From the NCBI RefSeq assembly GCF_002245895.1, contig NZ_NPJZ01000002.1, positions 124,001 to 188,000 of the forward strand: a DNA stretch of 64,000 nucleotides. The letters run 5' to 3'. The notes under the pieces are model-generated. The model did no database searches and was not told the DNA's origin. It saw nothing but the letters and a program-made list of their open reading frames with translations. Positions within the stretch are counted from its first letter, which is position 1. Every line of letters starts with the position of its first letter. The position numbers were made by a program, and so were the translations under genes. Positions 13,884-52,628 of this stretch are shown piece by piece. The DNA is from Rhodococcus sp. OK302 (GTDB lineage: Bacteria > Actinomycetota > Actinomycetes > Mycobacteriales > Mycobacteriaceae).

Positions 13884-14334
13884 GCCGACTCCCCTACCGT
13901 CCATCCCCGCACTATCGCACAGTGCCACCGATGCCCGCGGCCGATCTCGCGAACAGGATGGGCGCCAAACAGCGCACCGCTGACGGCGATGGTAACGGCG
14001 CCGCGGCTACAGCTCGCGAGCGTGGACTCGAAGTCCACCTCGGCGGCAACACGCCACGAACCGCAAAACACCACGGACGATTTACCGCCACAACAGGTTC
14101 GATGACGGTGTGCATCGGATTGCGCCGTCGAGGTAGGGGGCGGTAGTTGGGCGGCAGTGCGCTCTGTCAAGCCCTCCGCACGCCATCGCGGCGCCTTTGC
14201 CGACGCCAACCGGCGGCGTGCAATTCACGACGTGTGATAGAAACCGATAAGTATCGTTTACAAGTTACCCATCGGTAACCTATGCGGATGAGGATCGGTG
14301 GCGAAGTTCGACACCGAACATGGAGGGGCTCGAC
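13884..14334. other. Intergenic region upstream of etfD
   Basis: There is no convincing gene in 450 bp. Two perfect dyads lie 55-90 bp before the etfD start: CGATA-AG-TATCG (14245-14256) and GTTACC-CATC-GGTAAC (14264-14279). They are candidates for a regulator binding at the etfD promoter. Confidence 0.45.
14245..14279. promoter_or_regulatory. Two adjacent dyads in the etfD promoter region
   Basis: CGATAAGTATCG is a 5+2+5 inverted repeat, and GTTACCCATCGGTAAC is a perfect 6+4+6 inverted repeat 8 bp further on. Their closeness to the gene suggests an operator pair; the protein that would bind is not known. Confidence 0.45.
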
Positions 14335-17304
14335 ATGAATACTGTGACCGTCACCCTGGGGGTGATCGGCGTCCTGTTGAGCCTGCCGTGTTGGGCATCG
14401 TTCTTCGGCGGCGTGTCGACAATGATCCGAACGATCCGTCTCGGCCAGCCGGCACCTGATCGGTGGCACCCGTTCTTCCCGCGCTTCAGGCAGATGGTCA
14501 TCGAGTTCATCGCCCACAGCCGAATGGCGAAGTTCCGCACCGTCGGCTGGGCGCACTGGCTCGTCATGATCGGGTTTGCGCTGGGAATGTTCGTCGCTAT
14601 GGAGGCCTACATCCAGACGTTTGACCCGGCCAGCGGATGGCCAATCGTCAGCACGTGGCCCATCTACCATTTCGTCGACGAGCTTCTCGGACTCGGCACG
14701 GTCATCGGTATCACCACACTGATCGTGATCCGCCAGCTCAACCATCCGCGCGTCCCGGAGCGCCTGTCCCGTTTCAGTGGATCAAATTTCCGTGCAGCCT
14801 ATTTCGTCGAGGCCGTTGTGCTTATCGAGGGCCTGGGCATGATCCTGGTCAAGGCTGGTCGCATCGCGATGACCGGCCATGCGAACCCGTGGACCGACTT
14901 CTTCACCATGCGTGTCGCCGAACTGTTGCCGGCGAGTCCGAACATGGTCTCTGCGTTTGCTTTCGTGAAATTGATGTCAGCGATGGTGTGGTTGGCGGTG
15001 GTCGGCCGCAACATCACCTGGGGTGTTGCATGGCACCGCTTCTCCGCGTTCTTCAACATCTACTTCAAGCGTGAAGACGACGGAACTGTTGCTCTCGGCG
15101 CAGCAAAGCCGATGATGAGCAAGGGCGTTGCCCTGACCGTGGACAACGTCGATCCCGACACCGACACTCTGGGCGCAGGTCAGATCGAAGACTTCTCGTG
15201 GAAGGGCTGGCTGGACTTCACGACCTGCACCGAGTGCGGTCGTTGCCAGTCCCAGTGCCCCGCGTGGAACACCGGAAAGCCGCTCTCCCCCAAGCTCCTC
15301 ATCATGTCGCTGCGTGACCACGGCTACGCCAAGGCTCCGTACCTGCTCGCCGGTGGCCGCAAGGACATGGGCGGCGACGAGGTCGGCCTGGTCGACGCCG
15401 AAGGCAACGTCAACGAAGCTGCCCTCGCCGCAATTCCCGAAGCTGCCCGCCGCGAAGCCGAGCGCAAGCTCGTCGGCGAAACCACCTCAGGCGAAATGGC
15501 CCCGGTCATCGACGCCGAGACCCTGTGGAGCTGCACCAACTGTGGCGCTTGTGTCGAGCAGTGCCCCGTCGACATCGAGCACGTCGACCACATCATCGAC
15601 ATGCGCCGCTACCAGGTCCTGATCGAATCGGAGTTCCCGTCCGAGCTCGCCGGCCTGTTCAAGAACCTCGAGAACAAGGGCAACCCCTGGGGCCAGAACT
15701 CCAAGGACCGCCTCAACTGGATCAACGAGATGGACTTCGAGATCCCGGTCTACGGCCAGGACGCCGACACCTTCGAGGACTACGAGTACCTCTTCTGGGT
15801 CGGTTGCGCCGGCGCCTACGAGGACCGTGCCAAGAAGACCACGAAGGCCGTCGCCGAACTGCTCGCCACCGCGGGCGTCAAGTTCATGGTCCTCGGTGCC
15901 GACGAAACCTGCACTGGTGACTCCGCTCGCCGCGCCGGCAACGAGTTCCTGTTCCAGCAGCTCGCGATGCAGAACATCGAGATGCTGAACTCGGTCTTCG
16001 AAGGCGTCGAGCAGAAGAAGCGCAAGATCGTCGTGACCTGTGCGCACTGCTTCAACGCCCTCGGCAACGAGTACCCGGAGGTGGGCGGCGACTACGAGGT
16101 CGTGCACCACACCCAGCTGCTCAACCGCCTGGTTCGCCAGAAGAAGCTGATCCCCGTCGCGTCCGTGAGCGAAGACATCACGTACCACGACCCGTGCTTC
16201 CTCGGCCGCCACAACAAGGTGTACGACGCTCCCCGTGAACTCATGGAAGCGTCCGGCGCCAAGCTGATCGAAATGCCGCGTCACGGCGAACGTTCCATGT
16301 GCTGTGGTGCCGGTGGCGCCCGCATGTGGATGGAAGAGAACATCGGCAAGCGCATCAACGTCGACCGCGTCGACGAGGCACTCTCGACCAACCCCAAGAA
16401 GATCGCCACGGGTTGCCCGTTCTGCCGCGTCATGCTTACCGACGGCCTCACCGCTCGTCAGGAAGAGGGCAAGGGTGAAGGCGTCGAGGTTGTGGACGTC
16501 GCTCAGCTGATGCTCAATTCCGTCACCCGCCTCGAATCCGCACAGCTCACCGAGAACATCAAGGTGATCCCGCGGGAGAAGGCACCGGTTGCTGCTGCGC
16601 CGGCGCCTGTCGTGGAGGAAGCCGCACCAGTAGTCGAAGAGACCGCTGCTCCGGCTGCAGCTGCTGCACCGGCTGCCGGCAAGGGTCTCGCAATGAAGGG
16701 TCTGGCCAAGGCTCCCGGCGCCAAGGCTCCCGGCAAGGGACTCGGAATGGCCGGCGGAGCAAAGGCTCCGGGTGCCAAGAAGGCTGCGGCTCCCGCTGCA
16801 TCCGCCGAAGCTGCTGCTCCGGCTGTCGAAGCTGCTGAGTCTGCACCGGCCGCTCCGGTCGCAAAGCCCAAGGGTCTCGGCCTGGCCGGCGGCGCGAAGG
16901 CTCCCGGCGGCAAGGGTCTGCAGATGAAGGGTGGCGCCAAGGCTCCCGGCGCAAAGGCTGCTGCCCCGGCCGCGGCCGCACCCGCCGCCGCCCCAGTCGC
17001 AGAAGCACCTGTTGCCGAGGCACCCAAGGCAGCTCCGGTTGCCAAGGCCGGCGGTCTCGGATTCAATTCGGGCGCAAAGGCTCCCGGTGCACGTAAGGCA
17101 GCACCTGCTGCTTCGGCTCCGGCTGCACCCGTCGCGGAAACAGCGGCAGTCGAAGCACCAGCTGCCGCTGCTCCGGCAGTAGAAGCGCCGGCATCTGAAG
17201 CACCTAAGGCTGCCGCTGCCGAGACTCCGGCTCCCCCGGCCGCGAAGCCCGGTGGACTCGGATTCAAGTCGGGCGCAAAGGCTCCCGGCGCACGCAAGAA
17301 GTAG
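14335..17304 (+). CDS. etfD: EtfD-like membrane (Fe-S)-binding oxidoreductase with Ala/Lys/Pro/Gly repeat tail
   Basis: A 989-residue protein; the ATG at 14335 has GGAGGGG upstream. Residues 1-240: about five membrane helices of a b-type quinone-reducing domain. Residues 298-308 (CTECGRCQSQCP) and 400-410 (CTNCGACVEQCP) are two 4Fe-4S motifs. Then come two CCG domains, seen as TCTGDSARRAGNEF, CAHCFNALGNEYPEVGG, CCGAGGARMW and CPFCRVMLTDG. This is the architecture of mycobacterial Rv0338c/EtfD, which takes electrons from electron-transfer flavoprotein (acyl-CoA dehydrogenases) into the menaquinone pool. From about residue 745 to the end is a low-complexity tail with repeated GAKAPGA(R/K) units separated by Ala/Pro/Glu linkers. 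A strong hairpin follows the stop. It is probably a core gene, required for fatty-acid and steroid beta-oxidation. Confidence 0.93.
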   Translation: MNTVTVTLGVIGVLLSLPCWASFFGGVSTMIRTIRLGQPAPDRWHPFFPRFRQMVIEFIAHSRMAKFRTVGWAHWLVMIGFALGMFVAMEAYIQTFDPASGWPIVSTWPIYHFVDELLGLGTVIGITTLIVIRQLNHPRVPERLSRFSGSNFRAAYFVEAVVLIEGLGMILVKAGRIAMTGHANPWTDFFTMRVAELLPASPNMVSAFAFVKLMSAMVWLAVVGRNITWGVAWHRFSAFFNIYFKREDDGTVALGAAKPMMSKGVALTVDNVDPDTDTLGAGQIEDFSWKGWLDFTTCTECGRCQSQCPAWNTGKPLSPKLLIMSLRDHGYAKAPYLLAGGRKDMGGDEVGLVDAEGNVNEAALAAIPEAARREAERKLVGETTSGEMAPVIDAETLWSCTNCGACVEQCPVDIEHVDHIIDMRRYQVLIESEFPSELAGLFKNLENKGNPWGQNSKDRLNWINEMDFEIPVYGQDADTFEDYEYLFWVGCAGAYEDRAKKTTKAVAELLATAGVKFMVLGADETCTGDSARRAGNEFLFQQLAMQNIEMLNSVFEGVEQKKRKIVVTCAHCFNALGNEYPEVGGDYEVVHHTQLLNRLVRQKKLIPVASVSEDITYHDPCFLGRHNKVYDAPRELMEASGAKLIEMPRHGERSMCCGAGGARMWMEENIGKRINVDRVDEALSTNPKKIATGCPFCRVMLTDGLTARQEEGKGEGVEVVDVAQLMLNSVTRLESAQLTENIKVIPREKAPVAAAPAPVVEEAAPVVEETAAPAAAAAPAAGKGLAMKGLAKAPGAKAPGKGLGMAGGAKAPGAKKAAAPAASAEAAAPAVEAAESAPAAPVAKPKGLGLAGGAKAPGGKGLQMKGGAKAPGAKAAAPAAAAPAAAPVAEAPVAEAPKAAPVAKAGGLGFNSGAKAPGARKAAPAASAPAAPVAETAAVEAPAAAAPAVEAPASEAPKAAAAETPAPPAAKPGGLGFKSGAKAPGARKK

Positions 17305-17355: not shown

Positions 17356-17894
17356 GCAGCGGACACCGTTGAAACACAAGAATATTCGTGGCATCCACCG
17401 GCAAATACTGTGCCGTCGACAAATATGTGCACACCAATCAAATCATCCAAAGTTACTGAAACACAACAATATTAAAAAACACCCGAAAATCAACCTTCCC
17501 GAGCCTGCCGCACGCCCGAATCGCCGAGCAACAGCAGCTCCCCACCCGCGGCCGGCACCGCCGAACGACCGACCCGAACCCAGCCGGCACCCAACCAACT
17601 CGACGATCACCCACCACCGGGACAAGTCGTCACCGCAGGTCAGACCCTAAAACACCTCCCCCACAACCCAGCACCACAACCCTCGCCCGAAGGCGCCGGC
17701 ACCCAACCACCCAGGAAAGGGGACGTGTCATCACCGCAGGTCAGACCACATAAACGGTGCACCAACCACGCACCACCCCAGCACCCCGCCAGATGACGAA
17801 GACACCGAACACCCCACCCCGAATCGCCGCGCAGCAGCTGCCTGGACCTGGCGTGCGCGTTGTGCTGCACGCGATCTGAGCATTCAAGGAGGAG
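17356..17894. repeat. Non-coding, C/A-rich region with imperfect direct repeats
   Basis: There is no gene in about 540 bp. TCACCGCAGGTCAGACC occurs at 17630-17646 and again at 17731-17747. Each copy is preceded by CCGGCACCCAACCA (about 17584 and 17696), so a segment of about 60 bp is repeated at a spacing of about 100-110 bp. AATATT-rich and C-rich tracts alternate. It could hold regulatory RNA or be the eroded end of an element. Confidence 0.55.
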
Positions 17895-19388
17895 TTAGGC
17901 AAGGCCCGCACGGTGCAGCGCCGAACGCGCGGCGAGATGTCCGCACATGCCGTGCACACCGCCACCGGGAGGGGTCGACGCCGAGCACAGGTAGTGCCCG
18001 GAGACCCCTGTCCAGTAGGGATCGAAGGCGAACCGGGGACGCCCGATGAACTGCAGCATGTTCATAGCGCCACCGTTGATGTCGCCCCCGATGTTGTTCG
18101 CGTTGTCGGCCTCGATGTCGGCGGGTGTGTGGGCGACGATCATGGCGATGCGGTCCCGGAATCCGGGCGCGAACCGCTCGACCTGGGTCAGCATCGATTC
18201 GGTTGCGTCGCCGGTGTATCCGTGCGGGACATGGGCATACATGTAGATCGGCTGGAGGTCGCCGGTTGCCCGGGTGGGATCGGCGACGGCTTGCTGACCA
18301 ACGATCATGAAGGGGCGCTGCGGCATTCGGCCCCGAGCAGTGTCGTTCTCGGCGGCGACTACCTCGTCGTATGAGCCGCAGACATGCACAGTCCCGGCGG
18401 AACGGGCATGCTCGCTCGTCCACGGGATACCACCATGGACAGCGATGTCGAGTTTGAAGGCTGCGGCCCCGTGCCGGAACCGTTCGTACGCGCGCTTGAT
18501 CCGCCCCGGCATTCTGTCCCCGATCAGCCGGAGAACCTGACGGGGGCTGGTGTCGTACAGCACCAGATCGAATCCGGTCACCTGCTCGGCAGAGTCGATC
18601 TTCGTGCCTGTCGCGATCCGACCGCCGTGCGATTCGAGTATCCGCGCCAGACCCTCCGCCAACTGATCGGTACCGCCAACAACCACGGGCCAGCCATGAC
18701 GATGGGAAATCATCGCGAACATCAACGCCACCCCGGCCGTGGGCGGCCGCGACAACGGAGTCCACCCGTGGGCGGCGTTGCCCGCGAACAACGCGCGCGC
18801 CTGCGGGGTGTGGAACCGCTTGGCATACAGCGTCGCCGGAAGGAGCGCCGCCGGGCCGAACCGCGCCATCCGCAACGGACTGTGCGGCATCCCGATCATC
18901 GGGCTGAGCAGGTCGTCGGCGAGCATGTCGTAGTTGCGGACGAGCCAGTCGAAGGTGGCATGCCACTGCCGCTCGTCCGGCCCGAAACCCGCTGCCGTCG
19001 CGTCGATCGATCGCTGCAGGACGCCGGCTTCGCCGTTGTCCAAAGGATGCACCATATCGATTTCTGGCCACGCCCATTCGACGCCGTGTGCAGCAAGATC
19101 CAACGACTGGATGAACGGCGATGACACCGCGGTCGGGACGATCGCGGCACAGTGGTCGGGACGATCGCGGCACAGTGGTCGGGACGATCGCGGCACAGTG
19201 GTCGGGACGATCGCGGCACAGTGGTCGTGGATCAGCCCAGGGACAGTCAGTTCCTCCGACCGAAGACCACCGCCGATCGTGTCGGCTGCGTCCGCGACCT
19301 GGACGTCGACGCCGGCAGCAGCGAGTGTGATCGCGGCCGCCAATCCGTTCGGGCCCGAACCGACTACCAACGCTGAAACCATTCCCAT
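17895..19388 (-). CDS. Phytoene-desaturase-like NAD(P)/FAD-dependent oxidoreductase with repeat-coded insertion
   Basis: A 497-residue member of the COG1233 flavoprotein family. FAD motif: VVGSGPNGLAAAITLAAAG at residues 8-26, then IGGGLRSEELTVPGLIHDHC. Residues 61-83 are an extra 23-residue piece coded by additional copies of a 23-bp tandem repeat (19131-19222); without it the family sequence HDHCAAIVPT-AVSSPF would be continuous. Later motifs: HPLDNGEAGVL, GVALMFAMISHRHGWPVVVGG, GTVHVCGSYDEV, PGGGVHGMCGHLAAR (FAD end). ATGs at 19388 and 19382 are both possible; AAAGGAC favours the second. Family members desaturate, isomerise or oxidise isoprenoids; no carotenoid genes are near. Activity is doubtful with the insertion next to the substrate entrance loop. 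Confidence 0.85.
   Translation of the reverse strand: MGMVSALVVGSGPNGLAAAITLAAAGVDVQVADAADTIGGGLRSEELTVPGLIHDHCAAIVPTTVPRSSRPLCRDRPDHCAAIVPTAVSSPFIQSLDLAAHGVEWAWPEIDMVHPLDNGEAGVLQRSIDATAAGFGPDERQWHATFDWLVRNYDMLADDLLSPMIGMPHSPLRMARFGPAALLPATLYAKRFHTPQARALFAGNAAHGWTPLSRPPTAGVALMFAMISHRHGWPVVVGGTDQLAEGLARILESHGGRIATGTKIDSAEQVTGFDLVLYDTSPRQVLRLIGDRMPGRIKRAYERFRHGAAAFKLDIAVHGGIPWTSEHARSAGTVHVCGSYDEVVAAENDTARGRMPQRPFMIVGQQAVADPTRATGDLQPIYMYAHVPHGYTGDATESMLTQVERFAPGFRDRIAMIVAHTPADIEADNANNIGGDINGGAMNMLQFIGRPRFAFDPYWTGVSGHYLCSASTPPGGGVHGMCGHLAARSALHRAGLA
19131..19227. repeat. 23-bp minisatellite, four perfect copies plus 5 bp
   Basis: The unit begins GGTCGGGACGATCGCGGCAC and ends AGT. Copies lie at 19131-19153, 19154-19176, 19177-19199 and 19200-19222, followed by GGTCG. 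Because 23 is not a multiple of three, each copy is read in a different frame; three extra copies (69 bp) restore the frame and add 23 residues to the oxidoreductase. Confidence 0.95.
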
Positions 19389-20585: not shown

Positions 20586-21128
20586 CTACCGATCCGAATT
20601 ACGTTGGGCCCTGTCGTTGAACTTTTGAGCGTCGCCAGAAAGATTGACCTCGGTGTAAAGCCCCTGATTCCGAGACTCCCCTCGAGCAGTTTCCAAGACC
20701 TTTGCCAACGCGGATGCAACAGCCTCCTCCGACGAACCAACAAAGGCTGCCGAACGGGCCGCACTGTCGGTGGCGATGATGTCGACGGCGGGCTCAGTCC
20801 GGTGCCCGTCGAACACCACGAAGTTGGTGTAGAACTCAAACCCGAACTTGCCGCCATCGGAGTTGAGTTCGGCGATCACACACCACCACAAATCGAACTG
20901 GCACAACGAATTCAGCAGCAGATCGTCCCTCGTTGTCTCGACTTCCACCGGGGCGAGGATGTCGCGCCGCAACGGCGGTCTCTCACGGCCGCATGCGCGT
21001 GCGACCGCCAGAATGTTGCCGCCTTTTCCTTTGCCGTCATTGTCTGCTCGCAGTACACCGGCGCGGGAAACCTGCACCAATGCGTGGCGAATCCAGCTGG
21101 AGTGATCACCTTCGGCGCCGCGGCGCAT
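20586..21128 (-). CDS. Hypothetical protein, last gene of the RES/Xre operon
   Basis: 180 residues, starting 27 bp after the RES toxin stop on the same strand. The middle part (LLLNSLCQFDLWWCVIAELN, then SDGGKFGFEFYTNFVVFDGH) looks like a folded alpha/beta domain. The tail is Ala- and charge-rich (AAFVGSSEEAVASALAKVLE). It has no signal peptide or membrane helix, and no family was recognised. Its position suggests it accompanies the toxin-antitoxin pair as a third component, or is the next cargo gene. A hairpin at 20501-20526 follows. Confidence 0.6.
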   Translation of the reverse strand: MRRGAEGDHSSWIRHALVQVSRAGVLRADNDGKGKGGNILAVARACGRERPPLRRDILAPVEVETTRDDLLLNSLCQFDLWWCVIAELNSDGGKFGFEFYTNFVVFDGHRTEPAVDIIATDSAARSAAFVGSSEEAVASALAKVLETARGESRNQGLYTEVNLSGDAQKFNDRAQRNSDR

Positions 21129-21155
21129 CCATCTACACCTGACATGTGTCTGCGT

Positions 21156-21821
21156 CTACGGAATCCGGGCGTGGCCAGAACCGACGTACTTCAGGTGGTG
21201 GACCTCATCAAGCACCTTGACCACATCGGCGAAGGTACCCGGATCGGTCAGCACATCGTTCGACGCGGCGATACCGAGAGCGGCCGGGTCGAGGACTCCA
21301 CGATCGAGCAGCATCAAAGCGAGCTCGGCGGGGTTGTTGCGGCAGCGGTAAATCACCCCGTCGGTACCCGGGTCGGCATCGAGGATCTGATGGCAGGTGG
21401 TCCGGGACCAGGTGTAGTCGCCACGATCGCAGCCGACCAACGTCCCCGACAAGTTCAGGGATCGGAGATCGCCGTCCAACAGGGAGGCCACGGTGATGTC
21501 GCGGTCCAGGACCATCCTGGTGTAGGTCTTGCCGGCGAGGCGTGTGCGGCGCACGATCCCCGATCGTGGGATGGGGATGTCGCGGAGGATGCCTTCCGCG
21601 ACCGCACCGGCGAGAGACAAGGCCACGTACAGGTATCCGCCGTGGGATGTGTCGATCGGCTCGAACCTGCCCTGCACCGGGTCACCGAGTGCGCGGATGC
21701 CGGAGGCATTGAACGAGTTCGGTGGGTACGGGGAGGCTGTGCCCGAGATCCGATGCAGCTCGGTGCCTGCAGGGATCACCCTGAGCTGCGGGGCTCTGCC
21801 GTTGTATCGCTCACTGCTCAC
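21156..21821 (-). CDS. RES-domain toxin (NAD+-degrading type)
   Basis: A 221-residue RES domain. The conserved Arg-Glu-Ser set after which the family is named is visible: ELHRISGTASPYPPNSFNAS (Arg24), GGYLYVALSLAGAVAEGILRD (Glu76) and GDYTWSRTTCHQI (Ser139). GRFEPI..SHGGYLY is typical. Characterised RES toxins (MbcT, ParT) consume NAD+ by phosphorolysis or ADP-ribosylation and are blocked by an Xre/MbcA/ParS antitoxin. The antitoxin-like gene ends 5 bp upstream (21827), so the two are translationally coupled. The toxin looks intact and is slightly longer than MbcT. Confidence 0.85.
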   Translation of the reverse strand: MSSERYNGRAPQLRVIPAGTELHRISGTASPYPPNSFNASGIRALGDPVQGRFEPIDTSHGGYLYVALSLAGAVAEGILRDIPIPRSGIVRRTRLAGKTYTRMVLDRDITVASLLDGDLRSLNLSGTLVGCDRGDYTWSRTTCHQILDADPGTDGVIYRCRNNPAELALMLLDRGVLDPAALGIAASNDVLTDPGTFADVVKVLDEVHHLKYVGSGHARIP

Positions 21822-21826
21822 CTCGG

Positions 21827-22879
21827 TCAGTCCATGCCCATCTGCTCGGCCGCTACCATCACATCCACATCAGTCTCCGTGAGAGTCTGCGCGGTGAGCC
21901 GTTCCACCGGTCGCTGGTCACCGATCAGCGGGTTCTCGGTGAACCACCAATCCAAGGTCCCCCACGGGTCGAGATCGCACTCCATCAGTCGGTTCGCATA
22001 CTCGGCGACCGGGCGGATCTGTTTACGCTCGCGGTCGAACTGGAACACCGGGTACCGGTACTGGTTGCCCACCTTCAACCCGAGGAGCTGATGCGCCTTC
22101 CTCTTGGCGTTGGCCAGTGCCCGATTCACACTTCCGGATGGCGAGAGGATCTCCGAAACCTCCATCGAGGAGATCGTGTCACCCGAGAGGGAGAGCGGGG
22201 ACTCGTAGGTGAGATTGCCTGTCGAGGTTTCCAACTCGACCGAGTCACGTCCATGCCGGTCGGTGCCCGCCGCGACAACAGGGCCCGGATCGGCGAGACC
22301 TCGAGCGGGGGTCGGCGCCCACGGGGTTTCGTTCTCCGCGGCGCGGGCGGTACGGGTATTGCGCGGCAGTACTTGCAGCGCGATGGTGACCACATCGGTA
22401 TCGCTGGTATCGAACAACGCCCGCATCACAACACCGCCGGTATCAGCGAGATCGGCGGCATCCAATTCGTTGCGGAACACGTCGGTGAGCCAGTGCAGGG
22501 TCAACCCCGTCGCGCGGAGATCGAAGCGCAGTTCGAAGTCCACCTCGATACCGCCGCCCGGGCGGCGCGATGCGGTCTCGAACGAGGAAACCACGGCCGC
22601 GATCTCCCGCTTCCATTCCTCTACACTCTTCGGGTGCTCCCGGACAGGCAAGCCGTCGGCCCGGCCACCGGCGAGCCGCGACGCCGGCGGGACTCGGTTC
22701 CCACCACGAACCGAAAGCGACAGGCCGCGGCGGGAACGACCGGACGCGGCAACGGTACGGCCTGGCCACCTGCTCGCCGCGGCCGTGGACCCGAACCGAC
22801 CGGTCATCGCGCTCCGATTCACAATCCGAGCGCGCTCGTGTTCTACATGAACGCTTGATTTCCTCATGACGCACCCCAA
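21827..22879 (-). CDS. Xre/MbcA/ParS-type antitoxin with long N-terminal extension
   Basis: The last 112 residues carry the toxin-binding domain of RES-Xre systems: SVNRALANAKRKAHQLLGLK, then YRYPVFQFDRERKQIRPVAE, then LDPWGTLDWWFTENPLIGDQ and RPVERL (the DPW..L.WW..PN..L.G..P motif). The gene is open for 350 residues. The central part (VEEWKREIAAVVSSFETASR, FELRFDLRATGLTLHWLTDV) looks like a genuine extra domain, whereas the first 70 residues are Arg/Gly-rich and may be untranslated. Usual antitoxins of this family have 110-160 residues. It is immediately upstream of the RES gene. The start is uncertain; M5 or an internal GTG could be right. Confidence 0.75.
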   Translation of the reverse strand: MGCVMRKSSVHVEHERARIVNRSAMTGRFGSTAAASRWPGRTVAASGRSRRGLSLSVRGGNRVPPASRLAGGRADGLPVREHPKSVEEWKREIAAVVSSFETASRRPGGGIEVDFELRFDLRATGLTLHWLTDVFRNELDAADLADTGGVVMRALFDTSDTDVVTIALQVLPRNTRTARAAENETPWAPTPARGLADPGPVVAAGTDRHGRDSVELETSTGNLTYESPLSLSGDTISSMEVSEILSPSGSVNRALANAKRKAHQLLGLKVGNQYRYPVFQFDRERKQIRPVAEYANRLMECDLDPWGTLDWWFTENPLIGDQRPVERLTAQTLTETDVDVMVAAEQMGMD

Positions 22880-26325: not shown

Positions 26326-28011
<1,686 letters not shown>

Positions 28012-43011: not shown

Positions 43012-43200
43012 CTATGCACTCACCGAATCGGGTTCACCTGGGATCAGAATCGAGTCAAGCAATACGTCTGCATACTCCTCACGGAAGTAGTCCAAGCTCT
43101 CTTCTACACCAGGATCCAAATGCATCACTTTCGTGAGATATGCAAGGCGACGGCGGGTTTCGTCAATGACATCGCGCCATTTTCTCACAAAGATATTCAC
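43012..43200 (-). CDS. Short hypothetical protein
   Basis: A 62-codon frame from a GTG at 43200 reads NIFVRKWRDVIDETRRRLAY, then LTKVMHLDPGVEESLDYFRE and EYADVLLDSIL. It is helix-rich and soluble. The GTG and preceding GAGAAG lie inside a 20-bp tandem duplication (43182-43221), so the start region exists twice. No family was recognised; a gene fragment is possible. Confidence 0.4.
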   Translation of the reverse strand: MNIFVRKWRDVIDETRRRLAYLTKVMHLDPGVEESLDYFREEYADVLLDSILIPGEPDSVSA

Positions 43201-43221
43201 CTTCTCACAAAGATATTCACC
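43182..43221. repeat. 20-bp tandem duplication
   Basis: TTCTCACAAAGATATTCACC occurs twice head to tail with no change (43182-43201 and 43202-43221). Confidence 0.95.
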
Positions 43222-43529
43222 TCTGGCGCGCCAGAAGGTGACGGGTCAACGTGATGAACTCGCCCGGTCGAAAGGTGCCCCTCATGGACACGGCGTTGCG
43301 CTGCCGGCTTAATCTCAGTGCCCGTCGTTCACAGACACCAGTAAATAACTCCCCGAATGATCCTGATCATCCGGGGAGTTAAGTCAGGGCTGCTGGTCGA
43401 TCGCTTCATGTCGAGCGTCAACCACGCACACACGCCAACCACACATACACATCTGACGCTGTCCTACTGCCGACGGCGTACCGTATCGCACTTTCCCAGC
43501 CCCGCGGCACCGTCATCGTCTTCGCAGGA
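43201..43529. other. Gap with bidirectional hairpin
   Basis: No gene is seen. A strong hairpin lies at 43346-43381. Confidence 0.4.
43346..43381. terminator. Hairpin terminator
   Basis: TAACTCCCCG (43346-43355) pairs with CGGGGAGTTA (43372-43381), with an inner TGATC/GATCA stem. The T/A ends give a U-run in both directions. It probably ends transcription of the septum-formation-like lipoprotein gene on the minus strand. Confidence 0.7.
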
Positions 43530-52232: not shown

Positions 52233-52436
52233 TTGGACTCCGCCGTGGCCGTACCTCAACTTTTCCTGGTCACCGCCGTCGGTACCGGGTTACTCTCCTT
52301 TGCGCTGCAGGTCACATCGCTGGCGATCGCCGGACACCGGACGCTCACATGCGCCGCCACCAGTACCGCAGTGCTCGCGCTCATATTTCTGACGCTCGGC
52401 TTACTGATCTCACCGACAAAGACGAGGTCCAGGTGA
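52233..52436 (+). CDS. Small membrane protein
   Basis: 67 residues from a TTG at 52233 (a GTG at 52245 is the alternative). Two hydrophobic helices: PQLFLVTAVGTGLLSFALQV and CAATSTAVLALIFLTLGLLI. The stop TGA at 52434 is created by the junction of a 29-bp tandem duplication; without the duplication the protein would be one residue longer. Unidentified. Confidence 0.5.
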   Translation: MDSAVAVPQLFLVTAVGTGLLSFALQVTSLAIAGHRTLTCAATSTAVLALIFLTLGLLISPTKTRSR

Positions 52437-52462
52437 TCTCACCGACAAAGACGAGGTCCAGG
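52405..52462. repeat. 29-bp perfect tandem duplication
   Basis: Two identical copies (52405-52433 and 52434-52462) beginning TGATCTCACCGACAAAGACG and ending AGGTCCAGG. Confidence 0.95.
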
Positions 52463-52628
52463 CGATGATCAATTCCGTTCCGGAACCGCATCTCGAGCCC
52501 TACGAAGTCTCGACTGCAGTCAACAGCCCTCGAAACAACAACCCTTCACTATTGGATCCGGTCTGACCGCACTTCCATTGATGCCCAAGATGACTGGTGA
52601 TTTTCGCGTGGCTGCGCTGACCTAAAAA

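Follow-up and report, generated by a model that had tools for sequence, protein, structure and literature searches.

A tandem repeat that lies within an open reading frame (ORF), and whose unit length is not a multiple of three, raises the question of whether its copy number serves as a switch for the gene or records a recent expansion in a gene that the cell can spare. We addressed this question for a 23-bp array in Rhodococcus sp. OK302, for which a sequence-only reading had put forward both a slippage (phase-variation) switch and a recent expansion in a dispensable gene. The array lies in a stretch of 64,000 nucleotides (here called the window), corresponding to positions 124001 to 188000 of contig C2 in a genome of two contigs and 6.79 Mb.

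Results

A perfect 23-bp array within an oxidoreductase gene

We compared the units of the array with each other and analyzed the window with TRF (Table 1). TRF reported 4.2 copies with 100% matches and 0 indels, and the score of 194 was the highest among the 19 TRF rows of the window. The four full units turned out to be one and the same sequence. Both results confirm the four perfect copies plus 5 bp that had been described from the letters alone. The array begins at offset 161 of the coding sequence and contains 74 consecutive matches at lag 23. By chance, such a run has a probability of about 1e-43 per position, or about 1e-36 after correction for all positions and 500 lags, and these match statistics rule out a chance origin. 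A dispersed repeat could be ruled out as well, since the only copies of the unit in the whole host genome, allowing up to 3 mismatches, are those of the array itself.

Table 1. Location of the 23-bp array, its flanking direct-repeat arms, and the gene that harbors it (positions in the window)
Feature	Position	Strand	Basis
CrtI-superfamily / phytoene-dehydrogenase-like FAD oxidoreductase gene, 497 aa, array at codons 54-86	17895..19388	-	Pfam NAD_binding_8, full-length homologues, 4rep fold match
23-bp tandem array	19131..19227	-	Four identical full units + 5 bp; TRF
CGACC arm, 3' end of array (coding sense)	19131..19135	-	Sequence
CGACC arm, 5' end of array (coding sense)	19223..19227	-	Sequence

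The oxidoreductase harbors an N-terminal FAD Rossmann motif, which scored 44.4 bits against PF13450 (cut-off, 21.9 bits), and its homologues carry names such as "phytoene dehydrogenase-like protein," "phytoene desaturase family protein," and "NAD(P)/FAD-dependent oxidoreductase." In agreement with the superfamily fold, the best Foldseek match to the predicted model was 4rep, a gamma-carotenoid desaturase (E value, 6.3e-18; TMq, 0.68; 14% identity). The second match was 4dgk, which was also the best match in a profile search with the protein among PDB sequences (E value, 4.1e-8). The protein thus has the N-terminal Rossmann motif in common with the CrtI/phytoene desaturase flavoenzymes (4rep and 4dgk) and matches 4rep in fold. 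It differs from them in its low identity to 4rep and in its NCBIfam scores, which were far under the cut-off for all 17 models that it matched. Because of this, no substrate can be named for the oxidoreductase. Membership in crtI_fam (TIGR02734) was likewise not supported, with 48.1 bits compared to a cut-off of 238.1. The codon-position GC pattern was normal on either side of the array, and we found no stop or frameshift elsewhere in the coding sequence relative to the homologues. Apart from the array, the gene appears to be free of visible decay, which counts against a gene in decay.

The one-unit form and the relatives

According to the sequence-only reading, 23 residues are inserted between HDHCAAIVPT and AVSSPF. 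We aligned the 497-aa protein with the 120 homologues listed out of 7,999 scored, and the insertion was borne out: the junction is unbroken in all 120. Indeed, the segment from PGLIHD to SPF had the same length in each of them, only the OK302 protein contained 23 additional residues, and a second unit was present in none of the listed homologues. A pattern match on this segment gave 15 residues in 108 listed proteins and 38 residues in the OK302 protein. The closest listed homologue, from Rhodococcus sp. SRB_17 (a different strain and perhaps a different species), starts two residues later and differs by few substitutions; it is identical at 463 of 495 positions, with a single 23-residue gap, and has one copy of the unit.

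Similarly, junctions were read from DNA. The 76 loci yielded 46 distinct junctions, including that of OK302, the remaining loci being duplicates or unmatched by the pattern. All of the other 45 distinct junctions, paralogues included, showed the short form. The locus of one further relative, whose junction DNA was identical to that of a locus already in the set, was not recounted. Because the short junction was found in all 120 listed homologues and in all 45 DNA junctions, we take one unit to be the ancestral state, as the proteins alone already indicate. The identity of the copies, together with the one-copy relatives, places the gain in the OK302 lineage, and the expansion from one to four units thus appears to be recent and lineage specific.

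We also searched for close orthologues. On sequenced plasmids there was none, the 21 matching records all having 60 to 80% identity. In a search of 28 genomes from the genus, 98% identity was reached in the OK302 genome alone, and the remaining listed matches had 52 to 56%. In genome contigs, from which near records were possibly left out, the 16 loci recovered reached at best 65%.

Copy number and the reading frame

We simulated the coding sequence with different copy numbers. As claimed from the sequence alone, the frame was kept with 1, 4, and 7 copies, which gave proteins of 474, 497, and 520 aa. With 2, 5, and 8 copies, translation reached a stop at 148, 171, and 194 aa, respectively. With 3 and 6 copies, the protein was in the wrong frame but open for nearly its whole length (493 and 516 aa), and the absence of any copy also gave a product in the wrong frame (470 aa). 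An out-of-frame copy number, such as 3 or 6, need not truncate the protein early.

The unit lacks a stop in each of its three frames, so that the insert adds none by itself, and three extra units, amounting to 69 bp, leave the frame open and add 23 residues. Growth unit by unit would have passed through out-of-frame states, presumably most easily if the gene was dispensable at that time; these states would have been avoided had the array gained three units in a single step. The frame being kept at four copies would also be favored by selection for an intact protein, which would count against the gene being dispensable; without selection, one third of the copy numbers keep the frame.

Predicted effect on the protein

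The four-copy protein and the one-copy orthologue were modeled with AlphaFold in matched runs, using the same 17 sequences as alignment. The four-copy protein obtained a mean pLDDT of 75.9 and a pTM of 0.81, compared to 83.0 and 0.87 for the orthologue. Residues 41 to 82 of the four-copy protein were below 50, with block means of 36, 26, 35, and 37 over residues 41 to 80. In the one-copy orthologue, the block means were 66, 62, and 81 over residues 41 to 70. The loss of confidence extended to conserved residues ahead of the insert, an effect that would fit if either copy of DHCAAIVPT were able to occupy the native place. Low pLDDT is partly expected at an insert that the other rows of the alignment do not cover, and in this respect the models are only suggestive of misfolding. 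Because the insert lies within the conserved segment that follows the Rossmann motif and AlphaFold confidence collapses there, four copies probably impair or alter the protein. For the enzyme, the expansion is most likely either detrimental or neutral.

Rarity of the gene and its surroundings

A close relative of the gene (E value of ≤1e-180) was found in only 2 of 401 family genomes, that of OK302 included, indicating a rare accessory gene. The OK302 genome contains nine matches to the oxidoreductase at an E value of ≤0.001. Two paralogues on contig C1 (C1:742714 and C1:1033199) have 51% and 53% identity to the OK302 protein and 53% and 54% identity to its one-copy orthologue. Contig C2 is 774,595 bp long, and ARAGORN detected one tRNA gene on it. 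A single tRNA gene over this length makes C2 plasmid-like and suggests that it is a megaplasmid.

About 7 kb from the oxidoreductase gene, a thiolase ORF (26382-27647, minus strand) matched Thiolase_C only at positions 2 to 57 of 123. Just downstream, a tail in another frame presumably resembles the thiolase C terminus, and the ORF seems to be a decayed gene. Taken with the one-copy relatives, the identical copies, the rarity of the gene, and its two paralogues, this decayed-looking neighbor makes a recent expansion in a dispensable gene better supported than a slippage switch. The two parts of that earlier proposal did not fare equally. Recency was upheld by the single copy in SRB_17 and in all listed homologues and by the identity of the copies, whereas dispensability is what we infer from the setting of the gene.

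Between positions 17400 and 20600, we found three promoter-like sites (0.9 expected) and three terminator-like sites (2.5 expected). None of the promoter-like sites lies within 700 bp upstream of the oxidoreductase start on the same strand. A RES-domain gene (21156-21821, minus strand) is located between two ORFs of the same strand (20586-21128 and 21827-22879), both without a Pfam or NCBIfam match. This group (20586-22879) is possibly toxin-antitoxin-like.

Other tandem repeats in the genome

We surveyed 1,594,595 bp of the OK302 genome with TRF, comprising all of C2 and 41 of the approximately 301 20-kb stretches of C1. Six arrays had a period of at least 10 bp, at least 3 copies, and at least 95% matches, and arrays of this kind are hence present in the genome but rare. 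Three of the six have non-triplet units (23, 28, and 10 bp). The 23-bp array sits in a gene with family support, within a segment that is conserved. The array of 28-bp units (C1:4404969-4405153; 6.6 copies, 98% matches) covers the final 11 bases of an ORF matching short-chain dehydrogenases, and two predicted ORFs on the minus strand (194 aa and 145 aa) span it as well.

A perfect 8-bp array on C2 (C2:4235-4295; unit TCACCGAT, 7.6 copies) lies within a long ORF. It immediately precedes a short-chain dehydrogenase domain and adjoins the ribosome-site-like sequence AAGAGGAG. By its shape, it is a candidate for expression control by repeat number. The window itself also contains an imperfect repeat of 54 bp (16671-16779, 78% matches), located where an iron-sulfur oxidoreductase (14320-17304) has its Ala/Pro/Gly-rich tail, and two-copy repeats at 52405-52466 (29 bp, 96%) and 43182-43222 (20 bp, 100%).

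Origin of the array

In its one-unit form, the site would read CGACC, 18 bp, CGACC, and both arms remain at the ends of the array. The unit opens with CGACC and ends just before the second CGACC, as in the layout of slippage between direct repeats. In the DNA of the other homologues, the lag-23 match run in this segment is at most 4 nt, compared to 5 nt for the one-unit form, a difference that would weakly favor an origin by slippage. Direct repeats of at least 5 bp at lags of 15 to 60 occur about 53 times per kb here. As 5-bp direct repeats are this common, CGACC alone leaves the expansion at this particular site unexplained. A DNA hairpin was also considered as the driver of the expansion and rejected, since the array folds no better than shuffled sequences (z score, -0.42; 61 of 200 shuffles at least as good).

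The passages on penA beta-lactamase cited here (PMC4169377) provide a precedent. There, of 11 tandem repeats that arose de novo in the coding sequence, 3 were bounded by direct repeats and assigned to slippage. These direct repeats were perfect and 3 to 8 bp long, and the duplicate lay near the active site. As in OK302, a small part of an enzyme gene had been duplicated. In penA, however, the duplication and its reversal were both followed under selection, whereas in OK302 we have one static sequence with four copies of a non-triplet unit. Reversion, as given in the same passages, was measured for TR10 and TR11, neither of which was bounded by direct repeats. By analogy of layout, we infer slippage as the mechanism for the OK302 array.

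Discussion

We consider it probable that the array is a recent, lineage-specific expansion by slippage that keeps the frame, in an accessory gene whose product is likely impaired or altered. The 23-bp stretch bounded by the CGACC direct repeat would first have been duplicated through replication slippage, and the duplicate would then have grown to four copies through further slippage or unequal recombination. Four copies place 23 additional residues in the conserved segment just past the FAD-binding Rossmann motif. The resulting protein would be impaired or altered, and the strain would tolerate the loss of an accessory gene.

Alternatively, rapid slippage could toggle the enzyme reversibly between in-frame (1, 4, 7) and out-of-frame (2, 3, 5, 6) copy numbers. 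By anatomy, such a phase-variation switch is possible: as in contingency loci, a non-triplet repeat of identical copies lies within an ORF, and its copy number sets the frame in the way that we simulated. Coding duplications that toggle also have a precedent (in the cited part of PMC4169377). In pneumococcal capsule genes, a spontaneous tandem duplication lies within the ORF, as it does here, and the titles cited in PMC4022640 (Waite et al. 2001, 2003) report it as causing capsule phase variation; no surface role, however, is indicated for the OK302 oxidoreductase. In M. tuberculosis, likewise an actinobacterium, repeats of a similar general kind change in copy number, and the cited portion of PMC12817950 also lists VNTRs known within genes. 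The phase-variable repeats that it describes vary within the population but are located in promoters, while the OK302 array is in coding sequence. The absence of a second unit from all 120 listed homologues means that the array does not represent a conserved switch, although retention in relatives is a supporting rather than a strict feature of contingency loci. Furthermore, the family matches point to an intracellular-type redox enzyme and not to a surface or defense gene, and four 23-bp units make a short array. We regard a phase-variation switch as unlikely. A live switch with several states, in which one copy is ancestral, four copies enlarge the flavin-side loop and alter the activity, and the gene is off at two or three, seems very improbable; if true, slippage would shift cells among on, altered, and off states in an accessory redox pathway.

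The insert could also have been kept by selection, the 23 residues near the flavin site changing specificity much as with omega-loop duplications in a beta-lactamase, for which the cited part of PMC4169377 offers a precedent. The frame is indeed kept, and DHCAAIVPT occurs at either end of the insert, which gives each flank a complete motif to join. Such a change of function is nevertheless distinctly unlikely, given that the insert breaks a segment of constant length in all of the listed homologues and that AlphaFold confidence is lost at this very place. That an assembly or sequencing artefact multiplied one unit would fit the single copy in SRB_17, the nearest relative. It is hardly credible for a 97-bp array, which is shorter than an ordinary read, in an assembly of two contigs (6.02 and 0.77 Mb) that appears to come from good data. 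Finally, four 23-bp direct repeats on a plasmid-like contig could represent a DNA element, such as plasmid iterons or a regulator binding array, that happens to sit in a gene. An iteron or binding-site array is disfavored, however, because the unit belongs to the coding sequence of the family itself (DHCAAIVPT), is found once in relatives, and has no other copy in the genome; we judge this extremely unlikely.

The frame-keeping expansion by slippage is best read as a de novo tandem-repeat mutation of a kind already known. Among the open-access papers listed in our searches, none described this locus or a coding minisatellite switch in Rhodococcus. An unstable array would be the coding counterpart, in Rhodococcus, of the promoter repeats reported as phase-variable in M. 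tuberculosis, and would lie in a redox enzyme instead of a surface gene. If it is stable, it would represent a clean natural case of a frame-keeping expansion that is still young and was captured at an early stage, in view of the identical units, the one-copy relatives, and the two direct-repeat arms that are still visible.
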